In this document: piece after piece, positions 33,656 to 53,156 of the stretch
Numbering within the stretch: the stretch's first letter is position 1
Layout: each line of letters opens with the position of its first letter
DNA from: Cytophaga aurantiaca DSM 3654
GTDB taxonomy: Bacteria; Bacteroidota; Bacteroidia; Cytophagales; Cytophagaceae
NCBI RefSeq assembly: GCF_000379725.1
Contig: NZ_KB903632.1
Span: 62,001-126,000 of the forward strand
Direction: 5' to 3'
Length of the DNA stretch: 64,000 nt
Made by a program: the position numbers and the translations under genes
Notes under the pieces: generated by a model
Told to the model about the DNA's origin: nothing
Seen by the model: only the letters and a program-made list of their open reading frames with translations
Database searches by the model: none

Positions 33656-33777
33656 CCCGATTGAGGGTCGTGTATTATAAAGAATGAAGGGAGAGATTAG
33701 GCTCTGTGAACTTCTGGCAACCTGCCCACCAAAGCAAGGTGCCAATTCCTACCCATGTGGAACTATAAAAATTACGA
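33656..33777 (+). ncRNA. SAM-I (S-box) riboswitch aptamer
   Basis: The core matches the S-box consensus: AAAGAATGAAGGGA, hairpin GAG-ATTAG-GCTC, TGTGAACTTC, then TGGCAACC, P4 with CACC-AAAGCAA-GGTG, and CCAATTCCTACC. Arms GAAG/CTTC and CACC/GGTG pair as expected. The P1 closing helix is less certain (GTCGT at 33667 with ACGAC at 33773 is one possibility). S-boxes normally switch methionine or SAM genes off when SAM is high. No such gene follows here. Confidence 0.85.
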
Positions 33778-39705: not shown

Positions 39706-40407
39706 ATGATCCGATTCAAAGACATACATATCCCCAAGCCCTGCTCGGTAGAATACGATTCATTGCAAGGCGATGAAACAAAACGGTTTTGCGGTAATTG
39801 CAAAGAGTATGTGTATGATTTCAGAGGAAAGAATGAAGCGTATTTAAATCAGGTGACCGAAACCCAGGGGAAGGTTTGCGGTATTTATTATGAAGATCAA
39901 ATACGGCAACCGAGTTTACGCATAAAACGTCCATTTTACTTTGCAATTGCAACAAAGATTGTAAGCATAGGTCTTTTCATAAAAACTTTTTTTAGCACCC
40001 ACACCGCCGATGCTTCGACTACCTATACACCCTCTATACATTTCGAGCAGCAGGACACGATTGCAGTCATCAAAGCGGAGTTTAAAAACAAACCTAAAAA
40101 ACACAATTCTTATACTATAAGCATTTTTATCAACAATGTTTTATACAAAAAGAATGTATCTGTATATGATGGTTATTTGTACATGCCTGATACTACCTCA
40201 CCCGATGATAGCATTAAAATTATAGTATACAAAAAGAAAGCCTCACGCTATAGCAATGTTTCCTATTCCATAAAACCTAAAGAGTATTTATTTACATTTA
40301 AAGAATCGGATAAAATTGTTGTTGAAATAGATTACAAATTCCATTTCACTTTGATCAAAAGAAGAAACATCAGAGGCAAACGAAGAGCTGCCGTGGGATA
40401 TTATTAA
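39706..40407 (+). CDS. Cys-ribbon membrane protein, paralogue 1
   Basis: 233 residues. N-terminal domain with four Cys (13, 29, 32, 58) in the frame PKPCSVEYDSL, KRFCGNCKEYVYDFRGK and GKVCGIYY, a likely zinc-binding ribbon widespread as an N-terminal module in Bacteroidota. A single membrane helix follows at about 73-95 (FYFAIATKIVSIGLFIKTFF), then a beta-rich exported domain with YTISIFINNVLYKKN and a basic C-terminus (KRRNIRGKRRA). Orientation ribbon-in, domain-out is inferred from the helix. One of three tandem copies. Confidence 0.75.
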   Translation: MIRFKDIHIPKPCSVEYDSLQGDETKRFCGNCKEYVYDFRGKNEAYLNQVTETQGKVCGIYYEDQIRQPSLRIKRPFYFAIATKIVSIGLFIKTFFSTHTADASTTYTPSIHFEQQDTIAVIKAEFKNKPKKHNSYTISIFINNVLYKKNVSVYDGYLYMPDTTSPDDSIKIIVYKKKASRYSNVSYSIKPKEYLFTFKESDKIVVEIDYKFHFTLIKRRNIRGKRRAAVGYY

Positions 40408-40442
40408 GGGTTACTACACAAACTAAATTACATATTCACTCA

Positions 40443-41108
40443 ATGATCCGATTCAAAGACATACACATTCCCAAGCCCTGCTCTGAAGATTATGACTCGC
40501 TTTCAGGCGACGAGGTAAAACGCTTCTGCAGCAGCTGTGAAAAGCATGTCTATGATTTTAGAGGTAAAGATGAAGTTTATCTGAATGAAGTCTTTCAACA
40601 TTCAACAAAGACCTGTGGTATTTACTATCTGGATGAAATAAATACTATCAAAACAAATGCTATCAAAACAAACAAAAAAAGTTTATTCATACACGTTATA
40701 AGCTTCTTGATTTTCATTAAAGCTTTCCTGACAATACAGGATACAAAAGCTTCACAACGCATCATTCCTCAAACAGTACAACTGTCTGAAGATACAGATA
40801 GCACTGAAATCAAAACAACATTTAAAGGAAGACCGATTCGATCAAGAGTAAAAATCAACATTTATATTAACGATACTTTGTATAAGCAATATGCTTACCC
40901 TGAACAAGGCTATCTCTATTTACCTGACTCGCTAAAAGCCCATGATAAAATCAAAGTGAAAATTTTAGGCAACAAATTGTACAAGTCTAAAACATACAAA
41001 TTCAAGTTTGCACATGTGGACAAAATAACTGTTATAATCGCTGGTAAATCACCGATACATTTATTTAAAAGAAGAACTATTGTTGGTGCCATGGGAGATT
41101 TTTGGTAG
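40443..41108 (+). CDS. Cys-ribbon membrane protein, paralogue 2
   Basis: 221 residues. Same architecture: Cys 13, 29, 32 and 58 (RFCSSCEKHVYDFRGKDE), membrane helix near 78-98 (FIHVISFLIFIKAFLTI), then the beta domain with VKINIYINDTLYKQY and LYLPDSLKAHDKIKVK. The first 40 bases of the gene are almost identical to those of its neighbours, pointing to recent duplication. Gap of 35 bases to the upstream copy. Confidence 0.75.
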   Translation: MIRFKDIHIPKPCSEDYDSLSGDEVKRFCSSCEKHVYDFRGKDEVYLNEVFQHSTKTCGIYYLDEINTIKTNAIKTNKKSLFIHVISFLIFIKAFLTIQDTKASQRIIPQTVQLSEDTDSTEIKTTFKGRPIRSRVKINIYINDTLYKQYAYPEQGYLYLPDSLKAHDKIKVKILGNKLYKSKTYKFKFAHVDKITVIIAGKSPIHLFKRRTIVGAMGDFW

Positions 41109-41144
41109 TTTTTTTTTATCAGTAACCCTTATACAATATCAGAC

Positions 41145-41834
41145 ATGATCCGATTCAAAGACATACACATCCCAAAGCCCTGTTCCGTAGATTACGATTC
41201 ACTTCCAGGCGATGAAGTAAAACGTTTCTGCAGTAGTTGTGAAAAATATGTTTATGATTTCAGAGGAAAAGATGAAGTATATTTTAATTCCATTATTAAT
41301 GCACATGGAAAAGTATGCGGTTTTTTTTATGAAGACGATATTAAGTCAACAGCCGTAAAAATTAAGCGTCCATTTTATTCTGCTTTTGCTGCAAAACTAT
41401 TCGGTATATTTTTATTCATTAAAACCTTATTAAGTTCAGACCATGCGCAGGCGTCGACATTCCAAACACATACCACTACTCAGCAAGCAACAGATAGTAG
41501 TGGTGTAAAAGTGAATATCAAAAATCGTCCTTCACAATATCAGGCATACTTACTAGATATCTTTATCAATAATACCTTATACAAATCAGGCGCTAATCTT
41601 GATGATGGAACGGGCTTTATATGGCTGCCCGATTCGTTAAAAGAAAATGACAAAATCAGAATTGTAATAAAGGATTACGGCGACAATCGAGGATCGTATA
41701 AAATTCATAGGAAGGAATATCATTTCAACTATAAAGAATCTGAAAAGATAACGGTCAAAATAAAATTCCATAAAAGATCTGAAATACATCTCTTCAAGAA
41801 AAGAAGAAGATCTACTGGTGGAGTCTATTATTAA
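41145..41834 (+). CDS. Cys-ribbon membrane protein, paralogue 3
   Basis: 229 residues. Cys 13, 29, 32 and 58 conserved (RFCSSCEKYVYDFRGK, GKVCGFFYED), helix near 72-95 (FYSAFAAKLFGIFLFIKTLL), exported beta domain with LLDIFINNTLYKSG and a basic tail (KKRRRSTGG). Gap of 36 bases to copy 2. Together with copies 1, 2 and the exported relative, a four-gene family in one direction. Confidence 0.75.
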   Translation: MIRFKDIHIPKPCSVDYDSLPGDEVKRFCSSCEKYVYDFRGKDEVYFNSIINAHGKVCGFFYEDDIKSTAVKIKRPFYSAFAAKLFGIFLFIKTLLSSDHAQASTFQTHTTTQQATDSSGVKVNIKNRPSQYQAYLLDIFINNTLYKSGANLDDGTGFIWLPDSLKENDKIRIVIKDYGDNRGSYKIHRKEYHFNYKESEKITVKIKFHKRSEIHLFKKRRRSTGGVYY

Positions 41835-42928: not shown

Positions 42929-43729
42929 TTACAAGTATATATTTTTCAAAAAAGCAAATTGAATCAATTCAGCCATATTTTTGGAATTGGTTTTATGCAA
43001 CATGTTTTTGCGATGGGTGTGAATAGTGTTTTCACTCACAAACAACTTAGCAGCTATTTCTTTACTTGTATGACCTTTTTTTACTAAAGCCAGTATTTCT
43101 ATTTCTCTTTTTGATAATTTCAATTGAGAATTATCTTCGTTAAAAGATGTATAAGATATGGTTTGTTGAATTTGTCCACTTACCGCTTTATAGATTAAGA
43201 AATCGATATTGCCGTCTTTTTTAATATGATTAATATCATTCATTAAAAACATCATATACATGGGAGATCCGTCGGGATAGGTTTCGATAACACCAAATTG
43301 AACCTGGCACCAAAATTCGTGTTTGTCTGACCGTACTGCTCTAAAGGTAGAATTAAACTTATAGCTTTTAGCATCTTCATTGTTTGCTACTGCTTCTGCG
43401 ATTGTTTCACTGATTTTGGGATATAAATAGGCATTATAAATTGCCATGTGTGTGGGATGAAAAGTATCATATACTATCTGCATTCCGTTTTCGCTTACAA
43501 ATGCCTCTCTGGAATACCCCATGAGGCTAGAAAAATTTTCATTGCAATATATGTATCTTAATTCTTTATGGTCAAATATATTTACCGCTACTGGAAAGCT
43601 ATTGAATAAGACATCCAGTTCTTTTAAAAATATTGGCTTGTGATTGTCCAGTGATTGTGAATTCTTTTTCTCAAATAGGTTTTTCAAATTCACTTCAAAG
43701 TCAACAAATGAAATTATTTCATTTTCCAT
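42929..43729 (-). CDS. PAS-LuxR transcriptional regulator, copy 1
   Basis: 266 residues. Central PAS domain (about 45-170: FPVAVNIFDHKELRYIYCNE, FSSLMGYSREAFV), then a C-terminal LuxR/GerE helix-turn-helix (about 200-262): LKLSKREIEILALVKKGHTS, KEIAAKLFVSENTIHTHRKN. No receiver domain, so it is a one-component sensor-regulator. Nearly identical throughout to the gene at 43992, forming a tandem duplication. Confidence 0.88.
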   Translation of the reverse strand: MENEIISFVDFEVNLKNLFEKKNSQSLDNHKPIFLKELDVLFNSFPVAVNIFDHKELRYIYCNENFSSLMGYSREAFVSENGMQIVYDTFHPTHMAIYNAYLYPKISETIAEAVANNEDAKSYKFNSTFRAVRSDKHEFWCQVQFGVIETYPDGSPMYMMFLMNDINHIKKDGNIDFLIYKAVSGQIQQTISYTSFNEDNSQLKLSKREIEILALVKKGHTSKEIAAKLFVSENTIHTHRKNMLHKTNSKNMAELIQFAFLKNIYL

Positions 43730-43991: not shown

Positions 43992-44792
43992 TTACAAGTA
44001 TATATTTTTCAAATTAGCAAAGTGAATCAATTCAGCCATATTTTTGGAATTGGTTTTATGCAACATGTTTTTGCGATGGGTGTGTACAGTGTTTTCACTC
44101 ACAAACAACTTTGCCGCTATTTCTTTACTTGTATAGCCTTTTTTTACTAAAGCCAGTATTTCTATTTCTCTTTTTGATAATTTCAATTGAGAATTATCTT
44201 CATTAAAAGAAGTATAAGATATTGTGTGTTGAATTTCGCCACTTGTTGTTTTATAGATTAAGAAATCCATATTGTTATCTTTTTTTATATGACTAATATC
44301 GTTCAATAATGACAAAGTAAACATCGGAATTCCATCTGAATAGGTTTCAATAACTCCAAACTGCACTTGACACCAAAATACGTGTTTGTCTGAACGAATG
44401 GCTTTAAAGGTAGAACTGAACTTGTAGCTTTTAACATCTTCATTGTTTGCTACTGCTTCTTCCATTATTTCAACTACTTTGGGATATAAATAAGTATTAT
44501 AAATTGCCATGTGCGTGGGATGAAAAGTATCATATACAGTTTGCATTCCATTTTCGCCCATAAATGTCGATCTGGAATATCCCATGAGACTAGCGAGATT
44601 TTCATTGCAATACGTGTATCTTAATTCTTTATGGTCAAATATATTGGCCGCTACTGGCAAGCTATTGAATAAGACATCTAGATCTTTTAAAAATGTTGGG
44701 TTATGATTGTTTAATGATTGTAAATTTCTTTTCTCAAATAATTTTTTCAAATTCAGTTCAAAGTCAACAAATGAGATCATTTCATTTTCCAT
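43992..44792 (-). CDS. PAS-LuxR transcriptional regulator, copy 2
   Basis: 266 residues, the same length and architecture as copy 1 (PAS about 45-170, LuxR HTH about 200-262), with scattered substitutions mostly in the PAS domain. The promoter-side sequence is also duplicated (ATAATTCATTAATA and CTTATTATA blocks at 43730-43815 and 44793-44875). The DNA-recognition helix ENTVHTHRKN differs from copy 1 only by I to V, so both likely bind the same sites while sensing different signals. Confidence 0.88.
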   Translation of the reverse strand: MENEMISFVDFELNLKKLFEKRNLQSLNNHNPTFLKDLDVLFNSLPVAANIFDHKELRYTYCNENLASLMGYSRSTFMGENGMQTVYDTFHPTHMAIYNTYLYPKVVEIMEEAVANNEDVKSYKFSSTFKAIRSDKHVFWCQVQFGVIETYSDGIPMFTLSLLNDISHIKKDNNMDFLIYKTTSGEIQHTISYTSFNEDNSQLKLSKREIEILALVKKGYTSKEIAAKLFVSENTVHTHRKNMLHKTNSKNMAELIHFANLKNIYL

Positions 44793-46658: not shown

Positions 46659-46703
46659 TTAATAAAAAAGGCCTTGCATCTTTCGATACAAAGCCTTTTT
46701 ATT
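46659..46703 (-). terminator. Terminator of the tRNA-like RNA gene
   Basis: On the minus strand AATAAAAAGGCTTTGTATC, loop GAAA, GATGCAAGGCCTTTTTTATT. It starts about five bases after the tRNA-like 3' end, the same arrangement as at tRNA-His. Confidence 0.82.
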
Positions 46704-46706
46704 AAT

Positions 46707-46864
46707 TGCTGTAGGGGAGGGATTCGAACCAACTCACGGAGCAATTAGCCATAGTACATAACATTAAGTGGTCAACCCTAGCTTTTGTGCTTTACACTAC
46801 GTTTATTTTGAACTCTCCACCCCCGAGACAGGAGGGCATGTCTGCCAATTTCAACACCCTACAG
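46707..46864 (-). ncRNA. tRNA-like RNA with a long insert in the variable arm
   Basis: Read on the minus strand the ends fold as a class II tRNA: acceptor TGTAGGG with CCCTACA, linker TG, a Leu-like D arm (TTGAAATTGGCAGACATG), anticodon-type arm CCCTC-CTGTCTC-GGGGG, and a T loop TTCGAAT closed by CCCTC. It is not an ordinary tRNA: the loop triplet reads GTC with T at position 37, the T-stem 5' strand is GAG-TT-GG with a two-base bulge, and about 83 bases separate the anticodon arm from the T arm. That insert begins GGAGAGTT and ends AATTGCTCC, which pair, with an inner AGCTA/TGGCT stem. CCA is not encoded. Confidence 0.5.
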
Positions 46865-46889
46865 TATAATTGTCCGACTGACAACAATA

Positions 46890-46921
46890 CAAAAGTAATA
46901 GACCGAACCTTTTATTGCAAA
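46890..46921 (-). promoter_or_regulatory. Promoter of the tRNA-like RNA gene
   Basis: Minus strand: TTTG (46921-46918), 20-base spacer, TACTTTTG (46897-46890), a full TAnnTTTG-type promoter. Predicted start near 46882, about 18 bases upstream of the tRNA-like acceptor stem. Confidence 0.7.
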
Positions 46922-47006: not shown

Positions 47007-47474
47007 ATGGCTTTACATTCCGAAATTGATAGCATCGATCTGAAAATTCTAACTGAATTGATCCAAGATGCTTCCCTACCCTATACAGAGATTGCAAAAA
47101 AAATTGGCGTATCCGGCGGAACCATCCACGTGCGCATGAAAAAAATGGAAGATCTGGGCATTGTAAAAGGCTCGCACCTGGAAATCAATTACAACCGTTT
47201 GGGCTACGACATCACCGCTTTCCTTGGAATTTACCTCGATAAGAGCGAGTTCTATGATAAAGCAGTAGACGATCTTCGTAAAATTCCGGAGGTAGTAAAT
47301 GTGCATTACACTACAGGAAACTACAGCATGTTTGTTAAAATTATCTGTCGGGATACGCAACATCTGCGGGAAGTTCTCCACGATAAAATCCAAAAAGTCT
47401 ACGGTATCCAGCGCACGGAAACCAGTATCTCGCTTGAAGAGTCGATAAATAGAACATTGGCACTTGACCTCTAA
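47007..47474 (+). CDS. Lrp/AsnC-family transcriptional regulator
   Basis: 155 residues. N-terminal HTH (IDLKILTELIQDASLPYTEI, KKIGVSGGTIHVRMKKME) and a C-terminal RAM ligand domain (GYDITAFLGIYLDK, VVNVHYTTGNYSMFVKIICR). Members bind amino acids and form octamers. It lies 200 bases upstream of sufB on the same strand; a repeat tract (A4) and a possible sufB promoter box lie between, so separate transcription is likely, though control of suf by this protein is conceivable. Confidence 0.92.
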   Translation: MALHSEIDSIDLKILTELIQDASLPYTEIAKKIGVSGGTIHVRMKKMEDLGIVKGSHLEINYNRLGYDITAFLGIYLDKSEFYDKAVDDLRKIPEVVNVHYTTGNYSMFVKIICRDTQHLREVLHDKIQKVYGIQRTETSISLEESINRTLALDL

Positions 47475-47674: not shown

Positions 47675-49120
47675 ATGAGCGATAGTAATAAAATACTGGA
47701 AGAAATAACTTCATCGGAATACAAATGGGGATTCGTTACGGATATCGATAACGATTCTTTGCCAAAAGGTTTAAATGAAGATACAGTACGTTACATATCC
47801 GCGAAGAAAAATGAACCTGAGTGGTTGCTTGAGTGGCGATTGGATGCTTTCCGTAAGTGGTTAAAAATGGAAGAGCCTATATGGCCAAATGTAACATATC
47901 CTAAAATTGATTTTCAGGATATCATTTACTACTCTGCTCCGAAGCAAAAAGTTACATTAAACAGTTTGGATGAAATTGATCCGGAACTACGTGCAACGTT
48001 CGAGAAGCTTGGTATTTCGTTGGATGAACAAAAACGTATGACAGGTGTAGCGGTTGATGCTGTTATTGACAGTGTTTCTATTACTACTACTTTCAAAGTA
48101 AAATTATCAGAGCTAGGAATTATTTTCTGCTCAATGAGTGAAGCTGTTCAGGAACACCCTGAATTGGTTCGTAAATATTTAGGCAGCGTTGTTCCGGTAA
48201 CGGACAACTATTATGCTGCTTTAAACTCTGCAGTATTCAGTGATGGTTCATTTTGCTACATACCGAAAGGTGTTCGCAGTCCAATGGAACTATCTACCTA
48301 CTTCCGTATCAATGCTGCCAACACAGGTCAGTTTGAGCGTACGTTATTGATTGCAGATGAAAGTTCTTATGTTAGTTATCTGGAAGGTTGTACAGCTCCG
48401 GTGCGTGATGAAAATCAATTGCATGCTGCCGTTGTAGAACTTGTTGCCATGGAAAAAGCAGAGATCAAATACTCTACTGTTCAGAACTGGTATCCAGGTG
48501 ATAAAAATGGTAAAGGTGGCATCTACAACTTTGTAACGAAACGTGGTATCTGTGCAGGCGACTACGCTAAGATCTCATGGACACAAGTAGAAACTGGTTC
48601 TGCAGTTACATGGAAATATCCAAGCTGTATTCTTAAAGGCGATCACTCGATCGGTGAATTCTATTCTGTTGCTGTTACCAATAACTACCAGCAAGCAGAT
48701 ACCGGAACGAAGATGATTCACATCGGTAAAAACACGAAGAGCCGCATTGTATCAAAAGGTATTTCTGCAGGTCATAGTCATAATAGCTACCGAGGTTTAG
48801 TGAAAGTAATGAAACGTGCTGAAGGCGCGCGTAACTACTCGCAGTGTGATTCGCTTTTAATGGGCGATCAATGCGGTGCACATACCTTCCCGTACATCGA
48901 AGTTGAAAACAATACGTCTACTGTTGAACACGAAGCAACAACTTCTAAGATCGGTGAAGATCAGATCTTCTATTGCAACCAACGTGGTATTGCTACTGAA
49001 AAAGCAGTTGCCTTGATCGTTAACGGTTATTGCAAAGAAGTATTAAATCAATTACCAATGGAATTTGCTGTTGAAGCCCAAAAGCTTCTTGCGATCTCGT
49101 TGGAAGGCAGTGTAGGATAA
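47675..49120 (+). CDS. sufB: Fe-S cluster assembly scaffold SufB
   Basis: 481 residues, full length. Core subunit of the SufBC2D scaffold that builds Fe-S clusters in the cytoplasm. Starts with an AspGlu-rich N-terminus, then [20 protein letters not shown], and the SufB beta-helix with [58 protein letters not shown] and [20 protein letters not shown]. The Cys of [13 protein letters not shown] is the conserved core Cys. First gene of the suf operon. Confidence 0.96.
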
Positions 49121-49196
49121 ACGTTTTAAGTAATACGTTTTAAGTTTTAAGAAGTCGTTTCGATATCAACCCTTAGAACTTATTACTTAAAACATT
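49121..49196. repeat. TTTTAAGT-family inverted-repeat spacer (copy B3)
   Basis: Begins at the base after the sufB stop. GTTTTAAGTAATA (49123-49135) pairs with TATTACTTAAAAC (49181-49193). Bases 49123-49144 are identical over 22 positions to 53502-53523 in copy B4. The following 68 bases up to sufC show nothing further. Confidence 0.82.
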
Positions 49197-49264
49197 GAAC
49201 AAACAAATATATCTTAATAGAGTGCAGCATTAAAATACGCACCTCTGATTATTAAACAAACGTT

Positions 49265-50026
49265 ATGTTATCAATTAAAAATTTACACGCCCGCATTGAA
49301 GAAAAAGAAATTCTTCGTGGTATCAACCTTGAAGTAAAAGCGGGTGAAGTGCATGCTATCATGGGACCAAATGGTTCTGGTAAAAGTACCCTTGCTTCTG
49401 TTTTAGCAGGACGTTCAGATTATGAAGTTACAAGCGGAAGCGTTACTCTAAATGGCAAAGATCTATTGGATTTATCCCCTGAAGATCGTGCTCGTGAAGG
49501 AGTGTTTCTTGCATTCCAATACCCGATTGAAATTCCAGGTGTTAGCACCATCAATTTCATGAAAACAGCAGTAAACGAAATTCGTGAGTACCGTGGTCAG
49601 GAAACAATGGATGCTGTTTCTTTCTTAAAATTAATGAAAGAAAAAATGAAGTTGGTTGAGATCGATGAGTCACTATTGAAACGCGCATTGAACGAAGGTT
49701 TCTCAGGTGGTGAAAAGAAACGCAATGAGATCTTTCAGATGGCAATGCTTGAACCATCTTTAGCAATACTTGATGAAACCGATTCAGGTTTGGATATTGA
49801 TGCGTTGCGTATTGTTGCAAACGGTGTGAATAAATTGAAGACTCCAAACAATGCTACAATCGTTGTAACGCACTATCAGCGTTTACTTGATTACATTATA
49901 CCTGATTTTGTTCACGTATTATACAAAGGACGTATTGTTAAATCCGGCACAAAGGAATTAGCATTGGAATTAGAAGAAAAAGGCTACGACTGGATCAAAG
50001 CTGAAGCAGATGCACAAACGGTTTAA
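49265..50026 (+). CDS. sufC: Fe-S assembly ATPase SufC
   Basis: 253 residues, ABC-type ATPase of the SufBCD complex. Walker A GPNGSGKSTLASVLAGR near residue 35, signature FSGGEKKRNEIFQMAML, Walker B LAILDETDSGLDIDAL, and the SufC-typical VTHYQRLLDYIIPDFVHVL. Not a membrane transporter. 17 bases upstream of sufD, so tightly coupled. Confidence 0.96.
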   Translation: MLSIKNLHARIEEKEILRGINLEVKAGEVHAIMGPNGSGKSTLASVLAGRSDYEVTSGSVTLNGKDLLDLSPEDRAREGVFLAFQYPIEIPGVSTINFMKTAVNEIREYRGQETMDAVSFLKLMKEKMKLVEIDESLLKRALNEGFSGGEKKRNEIFQMAMLEPSLAILDETDSGLDIDALRIVANGVNKLKTPNNATIVVTHYQRLLDYIIPDFVHVLYKGRIVKSGTKELALELEEKGYDWIKAEADAQTV

Positions 50027-50043
50027 TACCGCATTACAAGACA

Positions 50044-51321
50044 ATGACTACAGAATTAAAAGAATCGCTGATACAGCATTTTAATACGCTTGAAAAAACA
50101 CCGTCTTCTGCACTATTAGTAGATACACGTAAAGAAGCGATCAGTGCTTTCCAGGAATTGGGCTTCCCGACTACAAAGCACGAAGAATGGAAATACACGA
50201 ATTTAAAAAATACGATTGCTAAAACGTATGCAATTGAATCTGCTGCAACTTTTTCTGCAGAAGATATCAAAACGCTTACAGCATTACCAATCGATTGTTA
50301 CAAAGTAATTTTCGTAAACGGCATCTTCTCCCCTTCTCTATCTACTATAGATGCTGCAGGTGTGACGATTGAGCCTTTTCAAACAAGCAATCAGGAAGTA
50401 GTAAAAAACTATTTCGCAAAAAATCTTCCATACAACGACAGTATGGTTGCATTGAATGTTGCCTTTGCTACTGCAGGAACTTTGATTCATGTAAAAGCAA
50501 AACAACATGTTGCAAAACCAATTGTCTGTTTCTATTTATCGGATGTGCGTTCAGCAAATGTATTTGCACAACCAAGTGTTTTAGTAGTTGTAGAAGAAGC
50601 AGCATCAGCAACTGTGGTTGAATTGAACCGCAGCCTGGGCTCAAACACCGCGTTCACAAATGCATTTACACATGCGATCCTGAAAAAAGAAGCGTATCTG
50701 GAGCAATACAAAATTCAAAACGATATTGACAACAGCAACTTCGTTCACAATTCTCAGATTGTTCATGAAGGGAAAAGTAATTCGTATACAACCACCATTA
50801 CATTAAATGGCGGCTTGGTACGAAACAACTTAAACATCACGCTGGGCGCTGAACATTGCGAAGCATATTTAAATGGCTTGTATCTTGAAAAAGGTGCACA
50901 GCACGTAGATAACCATACGCTTGTAGACCACGCCATGCCGAACTGTTACAGCAATGAGTTATATAAAGGTATTCTGGATGGAAAATCTACGGGAGTATTC
51001 AATGGAAAAATCTGGGTTCGTAAAGACGCTCAGAAAACAAATGCATTCCAATCCAATAAAAATATATTGCTATCAAAAGAAGCATCTGTACATACAAAGC
51101 CGCAATTAGAAATCTTCGCAGACGACGTTAAATGTTCGCACGGAGCTACTACAGGACAACTAGATCCGGAAGCAATGTTCTACCTACGCGCACGTGGTGT
51201 TGGTGAAGACAAAGCGAAGAAAATGCTTGTTCATGCTATTGCGTTTGATGTATTGGATAAAGTAAAACACGACGAACTTCGTGCTTATTTGGAACAAGAG
51301 ATTGAAGAAAGATTGAAGTAG
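50044..51321 (+). CDS. sufD: Fe-S assembly protein SufD
   Basis: 425 residues. Paralogue of SufB and partner in the scaffold. Helical N-terminus (KHEEWKYTNLKN is the family marker), then the parallel beta-helix with VLVVVEEAASATVVELNRS, HVDNHTLVDHAMPNCYSNEL, DGKSTGVFNGKIWVRKDAQK, and the C-terminal CSHGATTGQLDPEAMFYLRA. All expected SufD features present. Confidence 0.95.
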   Translation: MTTELKESLIQHFNTLEKTPSSALLVDTRKEAISAFQELGFPTTKHEEWKYTNLKNTIAKTYAIESAATFSAEDIKTLTALPIDCYKVIFVNGIFSPSLSTIDAAGVTIEPFQTSNQEVVKNYFAKNLPYNDSMVALNVAFATAGTLIHVKAKQHVAKPIVCFYLSDVRSANVFAQPSVLVVVEEAASATVVELNRSLGSNTAFTNAFTHAILKKEAYLEQYKIQNDIDNSNFVHNSQIVHEGKSNSYTTTITLNGGLVRNNLNITLGAEHCEAYLNGLYLEKGAQHVDNHTLVDHAMPNCYSNELYKGILDGKSTGVFNGKIWVRKDAQKTNAFQSNKNILLSKEASVHTKPQLEIFADDVKCSHGATTGQLDPEAMFYLRARGVGEDKAKKMLVHAIAFDVLDKVKHDELRAYLEQEIEERLK

Positions 51322-51467
51322 TTGCTAGGTTCTAGTTGCTAGGTACTAGACAAAAAGAACTTAGCAACTAATAATACTTAAATATTGTTACTAGAAACCA
51401 GAGCCTAGTAACTAGCAACTAAAAATGTTACTAGCGTCTAGAAACTGGTAACTAGAAACTAGCAACT
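51320..51467. repeat. CTAG-family inverted-repeat spacer (copy A3)
   Basis: It fills the sufD-sufS gap completely, overlapping the sufD TAG and ending in AACTAGAAACTAGCAACT directly before the sufS ATG at 51468. Left arm GTTGCTAGGTTCTAG plus TTGCTAGGTACTAG; right arms CTAGTAACTAGCAACT and CTAGAAACTGGTAACT. Confidence 0.82.
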
Positions 51468-52727
51468 ATGATGACAACCATCAATACTGACCTTTTAACC
51501 GCCGATGGAACGTTAAACATCGACCGTATCCGGGAAGATTTCCCGATCCTGCATCAAGAGGTGAATGGCAAACCTTTGGTGTATTTTGATAACGCTGCTA
51601 CTACTCAAAAACCGATACAAGTTGTTGAAGCCCTTACGGCTTATTATTTAAACGACAACGCAAATATTCACCGTGGCATCCATACGCTTGCTGAACGTGC
51701 TACTGCTGCGTTTGAAGCTACACGAGATACGGTAAAAACATTCATCAATGCAAAGGAACGCGAAGAAGTGATCTTTACGCGCGGCACAACAGAAGGCATT
51801 AATTTAGTTGCTTCAACCTGGGGACTTGCCAACCTTAAAGCTGGTGATGAAATTGTTGTTTCCGCAATGGAACACCATTCAAACATGGTACCCTGGCACA
51901 TGCTTGCGCAGCGTACCAATGCTATTGTAAAAATACTACCGATGAATGATGCCGGCGAATTGCTTACTGAAGCATTCGACACCATCATTACTTCAAAAAC
52001 GAAAATACTTGCTTGCGTACATGTTTCCAACACACTCGGAAGCATTAATCCGGTAAAACAATTGATCGCGAAAGCACACGCTGTTGGCGCAGTTGCATTG
52101 ATCGACGGTGCTCAGGCGGTTTCTCATTTAGATATTGACGTGCAGGATCTGGATGCGGATTTCTATGCATTCTCAGCACATAAATTATACGGCCCTACAG
52201 GTGTAGGTGTCTTATACGGCAAACGCGCGATCTTAGAAGCGATGCCTCCTTATCAAGGCGGTGGCGAGATGATCAGCGAAGTAAGCTATGAGAGCTGCAC
52301 CTACAACGAACTTCCATACAAGTTTGAAGCAGGTACACCAAACATTGCAGATGTAGTTGCCTTAAAAGCTGCGATTGATTACGTGAATTCTATCGGCAAA
52401 GCACCCATCCGTGCATACGAACATGAATTGCTGGATTATGCGGTTTCAAAACTAAAGGATATTGAAGGCATCCGTTTGATAGGTACAGCAAAAGAAAAAG
52501 TAAGCGTACAGTCATTTGTATTTTCAGACCTACACCATCAGGATTTAGGTATTATTTTAGATAAAGAAGGCATTGCAATCCGTACCGGTCACCATTGCAC
52601 GCAACCGTTAATGGGAAGATTAGGTGTTACGGGAACTTCTCGCACCTCTTTTGCATTTTATAATACAAAGGAAGAAGTTGATCAATTCATTGCTGCCATT
52701 TACAAGGCGATAAAATTATTCAGATAA
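51468..52727 (+). CDS. sufS: Cysteine desulfurase SufS
   Basis: 419 residues, class V PLP enzyme that takes sulfur from cysteine for the Suf system. YFDNAATTQKPIQVVEAL at the N-terminus, GTTEGINLVAS, MEHHSNMVPWH, the Schiff-base Lys in AFSAHKLYGPTGVGVLYG, and RTGHHCTQPLM with the catalytic Cys near residue 375. The short loop and HHC context mark it as group II (SufS) rather than IscS. Start ATG 51468; the next in-frame ATG is one codon later, making the first residue ambiguous. sufE follows after three bases. Confidence 0.95.
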   Translation: MMTTINTDLLTADGTLNIDRIREDFPILHQEVNGKPLVYFDNAATTQKPIQVVEALTAYYLNDNANIHRGIHTLAERATAAFEATRDTVKTFINAKEREEVIFTRGTTEGINLVASTWGLANLKAGDEIVVSAMEHHSNMVPWHMLAQRTNAIVKILPMNDAGELLTEAFDTIITSKTKILACVHVSNTLGSINPVKQLIAKAHAVGAVALIDGAQAVSHLDIDVQDLDADFYAFSAHKLYGPTGVGVLYGKRAILEAMPPYQGGGEMISEVSYESCTYNELPYKFEAGTPNIADVVALKAAIDYVNSIGKAPIRAYEHELLDYAVSKLKDIEGIRLIGTAKEKVSVQSFVFSDLHHQDLGIILDKEGIAIRTGHHCTQPLMGRLGVTGTSRTSFAFYNTKEEVDQFIAAIYKAIKLFR

Positions 52728-52730
52728 TAC

Positions 52731-53156
52731 ATGGCAACAATTAACGAAATTCAGGATCAGATCATTGAAGACTTTGGTTTGTTTGATGAGTGGGACGATA
52801 AATACGCATACATCATTGACCTTGGAAAAAAACTCCCTGGTATTGATCCGAAATATAAAGTTGAAGAGAATATCATCAAAGGTTGTCAGTCGCTGGTGTG
52901 GATGGTAAGCACCTACAAAGACGGCAAGGTATATTTTGAAGGCGAAAGTGACGCGATCATTGTAAAAGGATTGGTTGCATTACTTTTAAAAGTATTAAGC
53001 GGACAACCTGCTGAAGACGTTGCAAAAAGCGATATGTATTTTATACATAAAATAGGTATGGAGCAGCATCTATCCATGACGCGTTCAAACGGATTAGCGT
53101 CGATGGTAAAACAAATGAAAATGCATGCCCTTGCATACCAAAGTAAAACAGTATAA
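52731..53156 (+). CDS. sufE: Sulfur acceptor protein SufE
   Basis: 141 residues. Receives persulfide sulfur from SufS. Family core: FDEWDDKYAYIIDLGKKLPG, VKGCQSLVWM-type loop (IIKGCQSLVWMVS) with the active Cys near residue 51, and LVALLLKVLSGQPAEDV. Three bases after sufS. Confidence 0.95.
   Translation: MATINEIQDQIIEDFGLFDEWDDKYAYIIDLGKKLPGIDPKYKVEENIIKGCQSLVWMVSTYKDGKVYFEGESDAIIVKGLVALLLKVLSGQPAEDVAKSDMYFIHKIGMEQHLSMTRSNGLASMVKQMKMHALAYQSKTV

Follow-up and report, generated by a model that had tools for sequence, protein, structure and literature searches.

Why should a bacterium keep a gene for an RNA that is built like a tRNA, shows GUC in the anticodon place and carries a giant variable arm? 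This question is raised by a 156-nucleotide (nt) gene of class II tRNA shape on the minus strand (46863-46708) of a 64-kb stretch of Cytophaga aurantiaca DSM 3654, the whole of which (64,000 nt of a 4.42-Mb genome, G000) is here called the window. The original prediction, in which no strand was stated, placed the gene at 46659-46921, a span that does reach from its terminator to its promoter, and suggested a decaying tRNA-Leu or a tRNA-shaped regulator. We consider it fairly probable that the RNA is instead a non-decoding carrier, which would be loaded with aspartate by aspartyl-tRNA synthetase (AspRS) and amidated by the amidotransferase GatCAB for the purpose of asparagine supply.

Single-sequence folding of the RNA was no better than that of shuffled sequences (z = 0.18), and proof of its structure therefore had to come from comparison. 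In an alignment of 30 sequences, 94.7% of the cells were paired and 23 of the 36 pairs changed on both sides, a result matched in 0 of 500 shuffles, with sliding controls giving about 50% paired; the phage set, which stood outside model building, gave 96.2% and 25 of 36, respectively. Covariation backed the acceptor, D and T arms and all three helices of the variable arm, and the near-invariant anticodon stem was backed by pairing and by the alternative stems CCGCC/GGCGG and CCCGC/GCGGG. The resulting cloverleaf has an acceptor branch of the 7/5 type and a Leu-like D arm; its variable arm is about 80 nt long and its T stem is interrupted by a UU bulge, such a bulge of 1-2 nt being found in a subset of the relatives and the others being unbulged. 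Above the basal stem, the variable arm contains a second short helix, an internal loop, a distal stem and a GGGUUGACCAC motif, the conserved internal loop being GAUAAA/CUAA (AAUAAA/CUAA in the window copy). Thus, the class II form, the GTC triplet, the T-stem bulge and the self-folding insert described in the original prediction were all confirmed, as was its statement that the gene is not a transfer-messenger RNA (tmRNA), since the D and anticodon arms are complete and a separate tmRNA is present elsewhere in the genome. ARAGORN made no call on the element, and in Rfam no family exceeded the gathering threshold, a permissive search giving chance-level matches only. The gene ends at position 73 plus C74 without the final CA, and a tRNA-type 3' end (G73, C74) was found in 77 of 77 host copies; since almost all tRNA genes of the window's genome likewise encode only N73 and C74, the CCA end is presumably completed post-transcriptionally.

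The same RNA was readily found in related genomes. Of 59 relatives, 44 gave blast matches, among them all sampled members of the window's own family and genomes from many other families of the order, and the RNA was present in most sampled Cytophagales and in several other families of Bacteroidota. A pattern scan of named genomes gave at least 119 loci, among them Cytophagales (Hymenobacter, Dyadobacter, Spirosoma, Runella, Algoriphagus, Cyclobacterium, Flammeovirga, Aquirufa and others), Saprospiraceae, Chitinophagales and some Flavobacteriales assemblies. With a covariance model applied to 296 genomes of the phylum, members scored about 85-160 bits, whereas ordinary Leu and Ser tRNAs remained below about 62 bits. 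Tandem arrays were frequent, with four, five and six copies in G018, G007 and G050, respectively. The RNA is conserved across many Bacteroidota and is not decaying.

We also found the RNA pattern in 101 IMG/VR viral contigs, and all 80 of the loci checked matched the covariance model; a blastn search of named phage and plasmid records gave no match. The neighbouring viral proteins included terminase, portal, DNA polymerases A and B, T4-type RNA ligase and a crAss-type capsid. Many contigs had a tRNA gene, as a rule tRNA-Ser, at a distance of 3-30 nt, and the same-strand arrays that include the RNA gene held up to 26 tRNAs, several of them also encoding tmRNA and a normal tRNA-Asp. For example, 19-26 tRNA genes were predicted close to the element in four contigs (L249, L253, L263 and L281), with a tmRNA in all of these except L263. 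Such placement in the arrays of large phages implies that the RNA is probably processed as a tRNA.

The bases that have been kept point to two enzymes. Bacterial AspRS depends on G73, G10, G34, U35, C36 and C38, with G2-C71 as a minor determinant (PMC9976931), and the U1-A72 pair is a recognition mark of bacterial GatCAB (PMC4206432; PMC9976931). Among 77 distinct host copies, identified by blast or with the covariance model, U1-A72, G2-C71, G73, C74, U35, C36 and C38 were invariant and G34 was present in 75, so that the RNA has G34, U35, C36, C38, G73 and the minor G2-C71 of the AspRS set. In the phage copies, acceptor pairs 3-7 varied with compensation, whereas U1-A72 was fixed in 58 of 59 and G2-C71 in 59 of 59. 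Among the tRNAs collected in this analysis, U1-A72 occurred in 22 of 25 tRNA-Gln and in none of 15 tRNA-Asp; the genome's own tRNA-Asp has G1-C72 and the loop CUGUCAC, from which the loop of the RNA differs by a change of A37 to U. The marks of tRNA-Leu (A73 and a Leu anticodon) are missing, G73 and the GUC loop standing in their places. Position 37 was a pyrimidine in 77 of 77 host copies compared with 3 of 443 ordinary tRNAs (purine in 440), and U33 was retained in 68 host copies, the other nine having A, G or C. Lacking these marks of a decoding elongator (U33 and purine 37), the RNA appears to be non-decoding. A borderline match of 68.5 bits, in G030, proved to be a 77-nt form (L341, 238-314) with the loop CUAUCUC and no giant variable arm, which keeps U1-A72, U35, C36, U37, C38, G73 and C74; because the arm is lost and the marks are kept, the acceptor and loop marks may be regarded as the core and the variable arm as accessory. 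The same genus also has a long form, with C34 (L092).

The distribution of the RNA follows that of GatCAB. With GatB scored by TIGR00133, the gene was found, within the class, in 39 of 39 genomes with the RNA and in 3 of 42 without it. In the first sample the figures were 33 of 33 with the RNA (32 of the same class, and G327 of another) and 1 of 12 same-class genomes without it, the single exception, G099, having no glutaminyl-tRNA synthetase (GlnRS) and thus needing GatCAB for Gln-tRNA; in the second sample they were 6 of 6, plus G030, and 2 of 30. In total, GatB was present in all 40 RNA-bearing genomes tested, counting G327 and the short-form G030. RNA-minus genomes of other classes do have GatB. 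Asparaginyl-tRNA synthetase (AsnRS) was present in all 45 genomes of the first sample, and among genomes with both AsnRS and GlnRS, in which GatCAB serves no obvious decoding tRNA, GatB occurred in 23 of 23 with the RNA and in 0 of 11 without it (Fisher p ~3e-9, a descriptive value because species are non-independent). The split was seen even inside families: in f23, five genomes (G135, G154, G193, G267 and G313) had both the RNA and GatB and two (G060 and G177) had neither, and in f24 eight had both and two (G075 and G170) neither, a pattern in favor of the two having been gained or lost together more than once. The two GatB cases among RNA-minus genomes of the second sample, G209 and G255 (family f26), have a divergent GatB-like domain in a frame of some 1,120 codons, which may encode a fused amidotransferase from a different pathway.

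One asparagine synthetase, E. coli-type AsnB, showed a reciprocal pattern, being found in 0 of 33 genomes with the RNA and in 8 of 12 without it. In addition, three RNA-bearing genomes (G028, G046 and G321) had neither AsnA nor an AsnB-like protein above the TIGR01536 cut-off. AsnA was sparse in both groups.

The promoter and the strong terminator proposed in the original prediction were both recognized, and comparable sites recur at other copies. The site TTG-N18-23-TAnnTTTG was exact in 70 of 197 upstream regions versus 0.9 in shuffles, and a terminator-like hairpin was found in 99 of 197 downstream regions versus 1-8 in shuffles. A divergent Lrp/AsnC-family gene was the nearest gene in 98 of 172 host loci, a count that omits the window's own copy, which is apparently masked by a longer antisense open reading frame (ORF), and sufB recurred beyond the Lrp gene in 44 of 172. 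In E. coli, AsnC responds to asparagine; the back-to-back arrangement of the RNA and Lrp genes suggests shared control.

From these computational results we infer a path of charging, amidation, release of free asparagine and regulation through Lrp. AspRS would read the tRNA-Asp-like loop (GUC plus C38) and G73 and load the RNA with aspartate, after which GatCAB would recognize U1-A72 and turn Asp-RNA into Asn-RNA. Since an RNA with a GUC anticodon and GatCAB-made asparagine would bring asparagine to Asp codons, exclusion from decoding would be necessary, and pyrimidine 37, the unkept U33 and the huge variable arm may hold the RNA off the ribosome. Hydrolysis would then free asparagine for AsnRS, the RNA substituting for asparagine synthetase, and the divergent Lrp/AsnC regulator probably couples transcription of the RNA to amino-acid supply. 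Phages with nearly complete tRNA sets would carry the RNA for the same reason as their tRNAs.

Several observations weigh against this interpretation. G10 was not kept, position 10 being A in 51, U in 18 and G in 8 of the host copies, and G1-C72, which is helpful to AspRS (PMC9976931), is replaced by U1-A72; with both lost, aspartylation may be weak. Position 34 is C or A in two host lineages. Divergent proteins resembling AsnB exceed the TIGR01536 cut-off in most other RNA-bearing genomes (identity to each other about 22-36% in those compared), and AsnA is present in six, so that the RNA is not the sole possible route to asparagine in most hosts. U1-A72 is also present in the tRNA-Asn of the window's genome and of G065, and GatCAB could thus serve Asp-tRNA-Asn if AspRS were non-discriminating; because of this pair, the acceptor of G065 tRNA-Asn does not separate the carrier from a tRNA-Asn substrate. 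The window's genome has no GlnRS and would therefore need GatCAB for Gln-tRNA anyway. Furthermore, the co-occurrence counts share ancestry, and the RNA-minus set comes mostly from family f26. The AsnB-like paralogues, and the U1-A72 tRNA-Asn in two RNA-bearing genomes, leave us with less confidence in the asparagine-supply part alone than in the carrier reading as a whole.

The closest known system is the tRNA-dependent synthesis of asparagine on tRNA-Asn by a non-discriminating AspRS and GatCAB in Thermus, Deinococcus and Bdellovibrio (PMC4206432). The two would share aspartate on a U1-A72 RNA, amidation by GatCAB and hosts with AsnRS and GlnRS. In that pathway, however, the carrier is the decoding tRNA-Asn and AspRS is relaxed, whereas here a separate RNA with the Asp identity set and U1-A72 has lost its decoding marks and, as it bears that set itself, no relaxed AspRS would be required. 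A 2014 survey listed genomes with AsnRS, GlnRS and GatCAB and no asparagine synthetase, with Bacteroidetes among the genera, and proposed tRNA-Asn and a relaxed AspRS for them (PMC4206432); the substrate predicted here is instead the separate RNA. In the open-licence PMC papers searched, we found neither a description of this RNA nor a separate RNA for tRNA-dependent asparagine synthesis.

Other relatives differ in more respects. With tRNA-Asp(GUC) the RNA shares the loop CUGUC-C with C38, G73 and G2-C71, but its body is of class II, with U1-A72 rather than G1-C72, pyrimidine 37 and the giant variable arm. It resembles class II tRNA-Leu in its long variable arm and in a D arm nearly that of the genome's own tRNA-Leu(GAG), yet it has G73, an Asp anticodon loop and a several-fold longer variable arm with a conserved internal loop. 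Staphylococcus uses a non-decoding tRNA-Gly for cell-wall synthesis, outside translation; the RNA would likewise be specialized off the ribosome, although its predicted role is amino-acid synthesis and not cell-wall donation. Like tmRNA, which it adjoins in phage tRNA arrays, it has tRNA-like ends, but it is a separate gene with full D and anticodon arms and no evident tag reading frame. Long arms are also found in tRNA-Sec, which hosts a tRNA-bound amino-acid conversion, and in the allo-tRNAs (PMC7609411); these serve, or have been tried, in decoding, with branches of 13 or 12 bp (8/5, 8/4 or 9/3), in contrast to the 7/5 branch, Asp identity and apparently non-decoding nature of the RNA.

If the carrier reading is true, it would explain why GatCAB has been retained in Bacteroidota with both AsnRS and GlnRS, and a tRNA would have been captured for metabolism, making tRNA-dependent amino-acid synthesis testable apart from decoding. 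More tentatively, it is possible that the RNA represents a phylum-wide class of tRNAs working outside translation, on which an amino acid is built in replacement of asparagine synthetase, with an AsnC-type link and with copies borne by large and crAss-like phages to supply protein synthesis. Should the charging and auxotrophy predictions hold, this would be a new class of tRNA function, in an RNA family that was missed by the annotation tools tried (ARAGORN, Rfam) and yet is carried by phages.

Among the alternatives, two retain some weight. The RNA may be aspartylated, and perhaps amidated, with the amino acid passed to an acceptor such as a peptide, a lipid, the cell wall or a protein end and no free asparagine being made. 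Donation of amino acids outside the ribosome is known for other non-decoding tRNAs, the identity bases and the co-occurrence with GatB fit as well, and AsnB-like genes coexist with the RNA in many genomes, but we consider such donation unlikely, because the RNA has no transferase gene linked to it, its recurrent neighbours being Lrp/AsnC and suf, and because the reciprocal pattern of E. coli-type AsnB suits asparagine supply better. The regulatory role allowed for in the original prediction survives as an explanation of low probability, in which the RNA would be a tRNA mimic binding AspRS and GatCAB, as a scaffold or titrator of the tRNA-Asn transamidosome, or a partner of Lrp. The huge structured variable arm with its conserved internal loop, the conserved divergent Lrp gene, the U1-A72 of host tRNA-Asn and the precedent of tRNA-mimicking mRNAs that bind synthetases (PMC9976931) are in its favor; however, a pure mimic would need neither an invariant G73-C74 nor a processed tRNA-like 3' end, the 77-nt form drops the variable arm while retaining the acceptor and loop marks, and the phage copies sit within tRNA arrays. 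The marks kept for AspRS and GatCAB, and the fact that the RNA occurs together with GatCAB, point to a metabolic carrier.

That the RNA is an oddly shaped minor tRNA-Asp isoacceptor engaged in decoding is very improbable: GUC, G73, C38 and the placement in phage arrays match tRNA-Asp, but both the genome and the phage arrays in question contain a normal tRNA-Asp as well, every copy has pyrimidine 37 and nine have lost U33, and U1-A72 together with GatCAB would put asparagine on an Asp anticodon. A decaying tRNA-Leu, to which the Leu-like D arm and the missing ARAGORN call might point, is ruled out for practical purposes by deep conservation, in which most pairs show compensatory changes across many families and phages, by the unchanging bases of the acceptor and the anticodon loop, by enriched promoters and terminators, and by tandem amplification in several genomes.

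A number of narrower ideas were rejected. For a tmRNA-like tag, we noticed no conserved reading frame in the variable arm, and several lineages lack the GGGUUGACCAC motif; pairing of GUC with a GAC of the insert would give 3 bp only and involves a dispensable motif. Recognition by the queuosine enzyme Tgt (U33 G34 U35) is unlikely, as U33 is not kept, and the insert is too short for a remnant of the group I intron of tRNA-Leu, lies in the variable region and has no Rfam match. Mimicry of an anti-Shine-Dalgarno sequence by CCUCC in the anticodon stem was discarded, since CCGCC and CCCGC stems substitute elsewhere. A likeness to bacterial Y RNAs (UUGACC) is a lead for which no search was made, and the motif is dispensable.

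Features of the RNA locus and of related phage genes (window positions unless a contig is named)
Feature	Position	Strand	Remarks
tRNA-like RNA, U1 to C74	46708..46863	-	covariance-model match, 138.7 bits
Landmark bases	U1 46863, A72 46710, G73 46709, C74 46708	-	
Acceptor stem, 5' strand UGUAGGG (U1-A72, G2-C71), 7 bp	46857..46863	-	the two named pairs constant in 77/77 host copies; covariation at pairs 3-7 in phages
Acceptor stem, 3' strand CCCUACA, followed by G73 (46709) and C74 (46708)	46710..46716	-	
D arm, tRNA-Leu-like, UUG AAAUUGGCAGA CAU	46838..46854	-	near-identical to D arm of own tRNA-Leu(GAG); covariation
Anticodon arm CCCUC-CUGUCUC-GGGGG, GUC (46829-46827) in anticodon place	46820..46836	-	loop of own tRNA-Asp except A37 to U
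Anticodon-loop bases	C32 46831, U33 46830, G34 46829, U35 46828, C36 46827, U37 46826, C38 46825	-	
Giant variable arm	46738..46818	-	three helices covary; absent in 77-nt G030 relative
Basal stem of variable arm, GGAG/CUCC	46818-46815 / 46741-46738	-	
T arm, UU bulge in T stem at 46732-46731	46717..46735	-	bulge in part of the relatives
Promoter, Bacteroidota type, TTTG-N20-TACTTTTG	46890..46921 (TTTG 46921-46918; TACTTTTG 46897-46890)	-	
Intrinsic terminator, strong hairpin and T run	46663..46698	-	
Lrp/AsnC-family regulator, divergent from RNA gene	47007..47474	+	Pfam AsnC_trans_reg 3.1e-19
SUF iron-sulfur gene cluster, downstream of Lrp gene	47675..53156	+	context only; ORFs named from sequence
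tRNA-framed inserts, contig L235	8136-8251, 7682-7830, 6477-6616, 6142-6262, 5129-5276	-	
tRNA-framed inserts, other contigs	L242 4907-5050, 5866-5974; L246 9734-9831; L291 716-819		

The phage arrays contain several further genes in which near-identical tRNA-Leu-like ends (AGTCAGGTGGCG...TACAGGTTCGAATCCTGTCCTGACTAC) surround wholly different middles of about 50-100 nt; these are a family of tRNA-framed inserts. At about 240 nt from the element, two viral contigs (L268 and L285) have an ARAGORN-predicted tRNA whose anticodon has four bases (agtc).

Elsewhere in the window, an S-adenosylmethionine (SAM) riboswitch (S box leader) was located at 33672-33771 on the plus strand, with 57 bits. Three tandem paralogues of 221-233 amino acids (aa) with a common N-terminal motif, MIRFKDIHIPKPCS..., lie at 39706-41834 (plus strand), and two adjacent, near-identical 266-aa proteins, each resembling a sensor domain joined to a LuxR-type DNA-binding end, are encoded at 42929-43729 and 43992-44792 on the minus strand, the pair being a recent tandem duplication.
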